This document shows positions 3 to 1,356 of a DNA stretch of 20,699 bases, piece after piece. Both the position numbers and the translations under genes were made by a program. Source of the stretch: a virus; the IMG/VR virus record IMGVR_UViG_3300036846_001584, positions 1 through 20,699 of that record, one strand, 5' to 3'. The notes under the pieces are model-generated. The model did no database searches. It was not told the DNA's origin and saw only the letters and a program-made list of their open reading frames with translations. How positions within the stretch are numbered: the first letter of the stretch is position 1; every line of letters starts with the position of its first letter.

Positions 3-320
3 GACTGGGGTCCAGAGGGACTGGGCTCGTGCTCCTCCGACGCAAACACCGGCTGGGCAGCAAATTACGCCGGGAGCATTGGCTACTGCAGGCCCGAGCC
101 CGAACATCTTGGCGGAGGGTACTCCTGCACCGAGTACTCGCACACGTTTGGTGGTCAAACGTACACGGGAGCAATTCCGGCAACGTGTACCGTGCCTGGG
201 ACCTATGCCATCAGCTACATGCGGCGCGCAGAGCTTGTGTATTCCGGTAACGGAAACATGCCCAATGACTATTATGACCGGGTCAACGAAGTCTCAGCCG
301 AGTTCTACTGCCAGCAGTAG
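3..320 (+). CDS. C-terminal part of unknown Cys-rich protein (partial, start outside window)
   Basis: Frame 3 is open from the left edge to a TAG stop, giving 105 residues. I chose this frame over the ATG-started shadows in frames 1 and 2 because its composition is protein-like: Tyr, Gly and Asn rich, with six cysteines (residues about 9, 29, 42, 62 and onward to the last line) and a C-terminus ending in FYCQQ. Paired cysteines and many aromatic residues suggest a disulphide-bonded extracytoplasmic protein or a virion surface protein, but I recognise no family. It is followed within 40 bp by an intrinsic terminator, so it ends a plus-strand transcription unit that converges on the minus-strand gene at 403-1017. 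Reality of the frame is fairly secure; function is unknown. Confidence 0.65.
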   Translation, partial: DWGPEGLGSCSSDANTGWAANYAGSIGYCRPEPEHLGGGYSCTEYSHTFGGQTYTGAIPATCTVPGTYAISYMRRAELVYSGNGNMPNDYYDRVNEVSAEFYCQQ

Positions 321-402: not shown

Positions 403-1017
403 TCATATCGCCCCAAGGTCCTTCACGACGGCTTGGCTCTTCTGCAGGAAACCAACCAGCAGCCGTCCACCAGCCACCTGCCGCCCCATCCGCTCGTTGA
501 GGTAGCCGGCCTGCAACCGCGCGTGGGCCATCAGATCCACCTGCACCATGCTCGGAGTCGTGGCCCGCAGGGGCTCGCCAGGCGATGCCAGCTGCCCCAC
601 GATCGGCTGGACCACAGTTAAGCGCTGGCTGTCGCTCTTGGCATACGCCGTGGCCATCATCCGGCCGCTCTTGGGCGACCACCCCCCAAGCACCAACTCG
701 GTCCCGAGCTGCTCGCGCGGAAGACCCGCCTCGGCTACCGCCTTCTCGTAGTTCGGCCACAGCTGGTCAATGACGAGACCCAGCTCGTTGGAGAGTTGCT
801 CCATCGTGAAGTCCGCGCGGAAGCTGGCCTGCAGGGCCAACTCGTAGATGCGGAGGAAGAACTGGGCAGATCCGCGCGTCGCCAGCACCAGGTTGTGCTG
901 GGGGATCAGCAGCAGCTTAGCGCCGGCAGAATGGGCACCTGTGTGGGCATCTTCCGCCAGGGTATCGACCGCCACGACTAGGTGGTCAGGGCTAAGCAAA
1001 ACGTTGAGGATGCTCAT
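403..1017 (-). CDS. HslV/proteasome beta-like Ntn-hydrolase-fold protein
   Basis: This 204-residue protein starts MSILNV. If the initiator Met is removed, as expected before Ser, the N-terminus aligns without gaps to mature HslV/proteasome beta chains over about 52 residues. Ser1 sits at the Thr nucleophile position, Asp17 (in VAVDT) and Lys33 (in SAGAKLL) fall at the two conserved catalytic positions, and Gly48 (in TRGSAQ) matches the conserved Gly. A later segment, ELVLGGWSPKSGR (about residues 107-119), resembles the beta-strand and turn of proteasomal subunits. HslV is also about 175 aa and matures without a long propeptide. Seen: motif register. Known: proteasome-type Ntn hydrolases use the N-terminal residue as nucleophile. 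Inferred: peptidase or amidase activity with Ser instead of Thr. Stop is TGA at 403-405. No partner ATPase is visible nearby. It diverges from the small gene at 1081. Confidence 0.85.
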   Translation of the reverse strand: MSILNVLLSPDHLVVAVDTLAEDAHTGAHSAGAKLLLIPQHNLVLATRGSAQFFLRIYELALQASFRADFTMEQLSNELGLVIDQLWPNYEKAVAEAGLPREQLGTELVLGGWSPKSGRMMATAYAKSDSQRLTVVQPIVGQLASPGEPLRATTPSMVQVDLMAHARLQAGYLNERMGRQVAGGRLLVGFLQKSQAVVKDLGAI

Positions 1018-1080: not shown

Positions 1081-1356
1081 ATGTCAGAAGGAATCGCCGA
1101 AATACTGCAGCGCCTGGAAGCCTGCGAGACCTCCTTGGAGGCGCATCGCGGCTACCTGAAGGCGTTCGAGTACGGACTTCGTGCAGCGGTAATCACCCAT
1201 TCCAAACCGGAAGAGCTTTGCCGAGTCTGGACGCAGTTGCTTCCCGGGATTGCAGAGAAGCACTCCGGGGATGGTGGCGCCATCTACACGGCGGCCCTGC
1301 AGCAGGCGCTCGCGCTGCTCACAGATCAGATCGGGGCGCCGAGCCGGGTGCCTTAG
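1081..1356 (+). CDS. Small hypothetical protein (91 aa)
   Basis: Starting MSEGIAEILQRLEACE, this frame has strongly coding-like codon use (GC-rich third positions, no rare-codon runs) through TAG at 1354-1356. An ATG two codons upstream (1075) is an equally possible start; the longer extension to 982 is unlikely because it would run into the divergent gene at 1017. The predicted protein is largely helical, with two Cys and a short basic tail, and has no motif I recognise. It is divergent from the Ntn-hydrolase-like gene and shares a 63-bp intergenic region with it. A perfect hairpin downstream at 1473-1494 separates it from the convergent DUF4325 gene. Function unknown. Confidence 0.7.
   Translation: MSEGIAEILQRLEACETSLEAHRGYLKAFEYGLRAAVITHSKPEELCRVWTQLLPGIAEKHSGDGGAIYTAALQQALALLTDQIGAPSRVP

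Follow-up and report, generated by a model that had tools for sequence, protein, structure and literature searches.

A predicted proteasome-like Ntn-hydrolase carried at the edge of Stenotrophomonas prophages

The locus and its catalytic register

We analyzed a 20.7-kb virus record from IMG/VR (IMGVR_UViG_3300036846_001584, positions 1 to 20,699; the whole stretch is called the window), which shows the context of a Stenotrophomonas prophage. Besides integrase, AlpA, P22_AR, and HNH genes, the window encodes a protein of 204 amino acids at positions 403 to 1017 of the minus strand, with the start codon on the side of position 1017. The open reading frame call, conservation, predicted fold, and purifying selection point to a proteasome-like Ntn-hydrolase gene, hereafter the Ntn gene. 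The first-pass annotation had already listed this reading frame without naming a strand, and the frame is real, though it lies on the minus strand. A Shine-Dalgarno sequence is not evident upstream of its start codon.

In the translation, numbered after removal of Met1 (mature numbering), we found Ser1, Asp17, Lys33, and Arg47-Gly48. As noticed at first reading, these residues are in ungapped register with the T1, D17, and K33 of HslV, which we confirmed with Xanthomonadaceae HslV sequences read from genomes. Positions 1, 17, 33, 47, and 48 are occupied by S, D, K, R, and G, respectively, in all 77 distinct full-length relatives, and the residues of the catalytic register remain invariant when the alignment is extended to relatives of 25-29% identity. 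In full-length numbering, the invariant positions of the extended alignment are M1, S2, N5, D18, T19, K34, R48, and G49, together with a GWS and a GG motif. We additionally collected 12 far relatives, which are distant members identified by profile search in other bacteria of the same phylum. Their position 1 is occupied by Ser or Thr only, and all of them have D17 and a spacing of 15 between Lys and Gly. As a control for chance, the [ST]1-D17-K33 register was sought among 1060 other distinct open reading frames of the same loci and occurred in none. The Ntn gene is under purifying selection, with a dN/dS of 0.146 overall (0.113 for residues 1-128 and 0.205 for the remainder); the C-terminal half of the protein has diversified, as has the protein encoded by the divergent neighbouring gene described below.

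About 25 nt ahead of the Ntn start codon, at positions 1043 to 1069 of the minus strand, lies a sigma70-like promoter core, GACAG-N17-ATAGT. It is the single such site in the window, compared to 0.10 expected by chance. The core precedes the Ntn gene at the same place in more than 100 locus records and is found almost nowhere else. The wider form reads TnGACA-N17-nATAGT; of 83 distinct upstream regions, 58 contain it exactly and most of the others carry recognisable variants. The remaining upstream sequence is divergent among loci. Judged from this sequence conservation, the element is probably a sigma70-type promoter that belongs to the Ntn gene itself.

Beyond the promoter, a divergently oriented partner gene (positions 1081 to 1356, plus strand) encodes a protein of 91 amino acids with three predicted helices (3-39, 43-60, and 62-89; model pLDDT 88). 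Relatives of the partner were found by tblastn in 67 of 95 loci and by profile search in 69 of 96, that is, in approximately 70%. Family searches did not assign it to a family, and Foldseek gave no significant match to its model. The promoter is retained with or without the partner gene. We considered the partner as an obligate component of a common system and rejected this, as about one quarter of the loci either lack it or have it in another place.

On the other side, a gene convergent with the Ntn gene (positions 3 to 320, plus strand) encodes the C-terminal part of a protein that is rich in Cys, probably secreted, and without a match in family searches. It belongs to cluster 12, which is present in 23 of 96 loci, and is a frequent neighbour in other prophages. 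Between the two convergent genes, positions 360 to 382 hold a G+C-rich inverted repeat (ccccgc-gcaa-gcgggg), followed on the plus strand by a T-rich stretch, which may act as a terminator. Farther along the window, positions 1508 to 2581 of the minus strand encode a 357-amino-acid protein that combines a HATPase_c_2 domain and a STAS-like DUF4325 domain with an N-terminus resembling a helix-turn-helix. This protein weakly matches the PADLOC model of DrmA (E 1e-4), and the GC3 of its gene, 0.57, is far below the 0.82 of the neighbouring Ntn gene.

Predicted fold and relation to known families

An AlphaFold2 model built from an alignment of 40 members (pLDDT 81, pTM 0.74) shows an alpha-beta-beta-alpha architecture in which strands and helices follow the order of a proteasome subunit, including helix H1 (51-65) and a long helix H2 (72-96). 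The GGWSPKSGR segment, previously described as a strand and turn, is predicted as a beta-hairpin with strands 106-114 and 119-127. Foldseek placed 20S proteasome beta subunits (E 2e-5) and Anbu (E 1.3e-4) at the top of the matches, and the best VIA alignment was that to Anbu (Z 13.4, 185 residues, rmsd 3.4). In it, residue 3 of the model is aligned to residue 2 of Anbu, and thus Ser2, the mature Ser1, occupies the catalytic position. HslV was missing among the 50 VIA matches listed, which says nothing about a differing fold. At the level of a model and its comparison to 20S beta and Anbu structures, the proposed Ntn-hydrolase fold with an N-terminal serine is corroborated. The residues that characterize the superfamily, Thr or Ser at position 1, Asp17, Lys33, and the oxyanion Gly, recur across the 77 sequences and the 12 far relatives.

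Sequence searches did not recover this kinship. The Pfam proteasome model finds the HslV and Anbu proteins of the hosts, yet does not match the Ntn protein, and searches of PDB sequences by phmmer and hmmsearch yielded only chance matches to nitrile hydratase; the lineage therefore lies outside the curated families. HHalign found no match to HslV or Anbu profiles, which were so shallow that HslV and Anbu missed each other as well. Since no sequence-profile match to HslV or Anbu is significant, the kinship rests on fold and register. PHROG 13702, labelled "terminase large subunit", has matches in each of the 40 members of the Stenotrophomonas set (best E 2.8e-6) and in several of the far relatives located in tail modules. 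This label is very probably a mis-annotation, given that the model has no terminase fold and that a TerL gene merely adjoins one relative; it may have spread via annotation pipelines. The Ntn proteins hence form a coherent phage-borne proteasome-like lineage that lacks Pfam and NCBIfam coverage and whose PHROGs label is very probably wrong.

A survey by Fuchs et al. in 2021 described 22 proteasome-like families with Thr1 or Ser1, D17, and K33 and with neither AAA+ partners nor a known function, some of which (PPH, AAH) are phage-borne (PMC8665760). In view of these families, neither Ser1 nor carriage by a phage is new in kind, and the suggestion that the serine and the mobile setting amount to a new use of the fold is not supported in that form. 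PPH and AAH resemble the Ntn protein in being phage-borne, in the residues Thr1/Ser1, D17, and K33, and in the lack of an AAA+ partner (PMC8665760). PPH comprises approximately 140 residues and lacks helix H2 (PMC8665760), whereas the Ntn protein has 204 residues and a predicted H2 at 72-96, and is thus not PPH. The Stenotrophomonas set reduces to six sequences at 70% identity and would by itself fall below the threshold of 10 representatives per cluster applied in 2021. The lineage, its own promoter, and its suggested ancestry in tail genes look new, with the lineage set apart, by description, from PPH alone among the 2021 families.

Compared to housekeeping relatives, Anbu (PDB 5nyw, 5lox) is the best structural match to the model. 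It likewise has no propeptide, and its nucleophile is exposed by removal of Met (PMC5666114), as would be the case for the Ntn protein. In contrast, identity to Anbu is only about 15%, the Ntn model ends at the last strand while Anbu has a longer C-terminal helix, and Anbu is a host gene and not prophage cargo. HslV shares the ungapped D17/K33/Gly register from residue 1. It differs in its catalytic Thr1, as opposed to Ser in 77 of 77 members of the Ntn family, and in its partner HslU. Neither HslU nor any other AAA_2 gene was detected in 28 phage records with the Ntn gene (the window and 27 others), all of which are possibly incomplete and many of which are fragments, while the control search was positive in 14 of 14 genomes. 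For this one ATPase family, the observation that no ATPase is encoded nearby extends from the window to all of these records.

Distribution and mobility in Stenotrophomonas

Relatives in named genomes belong without exception (18 of 18) to Stenotrophomonas or to the related [Pseudomonas] hibiscicola. We found 75 loci in IMG/VR by search with the single protein and at least 80 by search with the alignment. The gene is patchily distributed: it is present in 43 of 91 Stenotrophomonas genomes, about half of the Stenotrophomonas species genomes sampled, and in 8 of 198 genomes of the bacterial family. It often occurs in multiple copies or as remnants, with up to seven matching fragments per Stenotrophomonas genome. 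A search of 50,697 phage records retrieved no relatives, and plasmids gave weak matches only. Among 39 viral contigs of at least 30 kb, there are 34 in which the Ntn gene is no more than 6 kb away from the downstream end, to which it points, compared to 5.5 expected. The viral contigs, the Stenotrophomonas genomes, the location at the edge, and the patchy, multi-copy occurrence together support the reading that the gene is prophage cargo. Cassettes encoding SRAP, BLUF, and Zn-ribbon proteins recur near it in varying order; SRAP, an SOS-response peptidase, and the blue-light sensor BLUF share the prophage accessory region in L078, L098, L121, L135, and other loci.

In five genomes (G075, locus L269 on contig 86; G603; G605; G619; G632), a copy of the Ntn gene is split at codon 54/55 by an insertion of 8.4 or 19 kb. 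We discarded the idea of site-specific integration at this codon, as the one split copy examined shows GGGGG-type inverted repeats (..TACGCTAAG) and a 5-bp target duplication, TTCCT, which resembles a transposon of the Tn3 family. The interruption by a transposon-like insert indicates that the gene is dispensable, at least in that copy. A MerR-like gene is located near the insertion.

The carrier phages have differing sets of tail genes. Of the 28 records, nine contain a lambda-type J gene and three an NlpC gene, and both accompany the Ntn gene in G1304, G1306, and G1314; the window contains neither. We therefore rejected the Ntn gene as a substitute for the lambda NlpC/K gene in Stenotrophomonas phages, since phages with NlpC carry it too. 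In the lambda-type prophages, the Ntn gene is located just downstream of the tail genes and outside the tail operon.

Far relatives in tail modules and candidate functions

The far relatives show a recurrent link to tail genes. Four are located at the end of a tape-measure gene or close to it (L278/L281, L290, L292, and, within 170 nt, L291), two of these being the weakest homologs (L291, E 6e-8; L292, E 2e-5). Four more (L230, L231/L223, L279, and L289) adjoin an open reading frame that resembles the beta-grasp N-terminus of the lambda tail I/J proteins, and such neighbours match PF06805, Lambda_tail_I, with E-values of 4.5e-5 and 5.6e-4. In several cases, start and stop codons overlap with those of the tail neighbour. 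Two other far relatives are located in integrative elements, and a further one in a chromosomal setting. The loci L278, L289, L290, and L292 are in prophages of another bacterial class, with tape-measure, TerL, or tail-I/J-like neighbours; L278 holds two full proteasome-like copies, of which one immediately follows the tape-measure gene. The genomes G1198 and G957 probably belong to the Alphaproteobacteria. Searches of viral contigs with the far relatives L185, L187, and L230 as queries gave no matches; A5 could not serve as a query on account of its divergence.

The tape-measure proteins of lambda and T5 are cleaved during tail morphogenesis (PMC10038345), and JAB/NlpC peptidases were proposed by Iyer et al. 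in 2006 to process tail protein I (PMC1779556). Together with these known and proposed events, the setting of the far relatives makes an origin as a tail-module peptidase plausible. The arrangement resembles that of lambda tail protein I and the JAB/NlpC tail protein K, where a ubiquitin-like tail gene likewise adjoins a peptidase gene (PMC1779556). However, the peptidase of the far relatives is proteasome-like and not of the JAB/NlpC type, and the pair was not seen in the window. The data thus suggest a tail-module origin of the Ntn gene, and less so a tail function in the Stenotrophomonas phages. In addition, the repeated link to tape-measure and tail-I/J-like genes provides orphan proteasome homologs of phages with a substrate hypothesis, which is tail-protein processing or a derived function in the lysogen.

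On balance, we favour the reading that the Ntn gene is an accessory cassette of the "moron" type in temperate Stenotrophomonas phages, which encodes a proteasome-like Ser Ntn-hydrolase, descends from tail modules, and is expressed in the lysogen. Morons, which are acquired and independently transcribed genes, are common in phages of S. maltophilia (PMC6469090), and the conserved promoter-like element and the location at the prophage edge would fit this definition at the sequence level. The gene would have descended from peptidases of tail-assembly modules and later become cargo carried at the end of the prophage. Its own sigma70-like promoter probably drives its transcription in the lysogen. 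Host methionine aminopeptidase would remove Met1 and expose Ser1, which Lys33 and Asp17 may activate, with the Arg47-Gly48 loop as the putative oxyanion site. As neither a propeptide nor a phage-encoded AAA unfoldase was found, the enzyme probably works by itself or as a homo-oligomer, with small, unfolded, or specific proteins as its substrates; a host unfoldase could also be its partner. Against an accessory gene stand its position downstream of the tail genes in lambda-type prophages, the far relatives inside tail modules, and the lack of an evident Shine-Dalgarno sequence.

The strongest competing explanation is a peptidase of tail morphogenesis whose substrate during assembly, in Stenotrophomonas phages as well, would be either the tape-measure protein or tail protein I/J, which is ubiquitin-like. 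The adjoining tail genes with their codon overlaps, the PF06805 matches, and the precedents of tail-protein cleavage (PMC10038345) and proposed tail protein I processing (PMC1779556) argue for it. We nevertheless regard it as clearly less probable, as the Stenotrophomonas gene has its own promoter outside the tail operon, accompanies J and NlpC in some phages and occurs without J in others, including the window with neither, and as two far relatives reside in integrative elements and another in a chromosomal setting. A related and somewhat less probable scenario concerns a part of the family, in which the peptidase would form a co-translated tail-processing pair with either the tape-measure protein or the ubiquitin-like (beta-grasp) tail protein, with the Stenotrophomonas branch as an escaped copy reused in the lysogen. 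If true, such a peptidase would perform a tail-protein cleavage akin to that in lambda and T5.

An anti-phage or superinfection-exclusion effector retained by the lysogen would likewise account for the prophage edge and the own promoter, and also for the diversified C-terminal half and partner protein. This seems unlikely, given that PADLOC defence models match neither the gene nor its partner and that the partner is not constant among the loci. Slightly less likely still is a non-degradative enzyme of the proteasome fold, such as a specific amidase or a connectase-like transpeptidase or ligase. Connectase is a monomeric and highly specific ligase of the same fold (PMC8665760), no AAA_2 unfoldase was found in the 28 records, and the invariant non-catalytic N4, T18, W112, and GGR (mature numbering) suggest a defined substrate site. 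However, connectase lacks H1 and H2, both of which are present in the Ntn model, and the Stenotrophomonas members are without the long S3/S4 insertion. Finally, HslV and Anbu are present in the host genomes, but a decayed, inactive housekeeping copy acquired by the phage is highly improbable in light of the differing response to the Pfam model, the invariant catalytic residues, the low dN/dS, and the existence of a large separate family.
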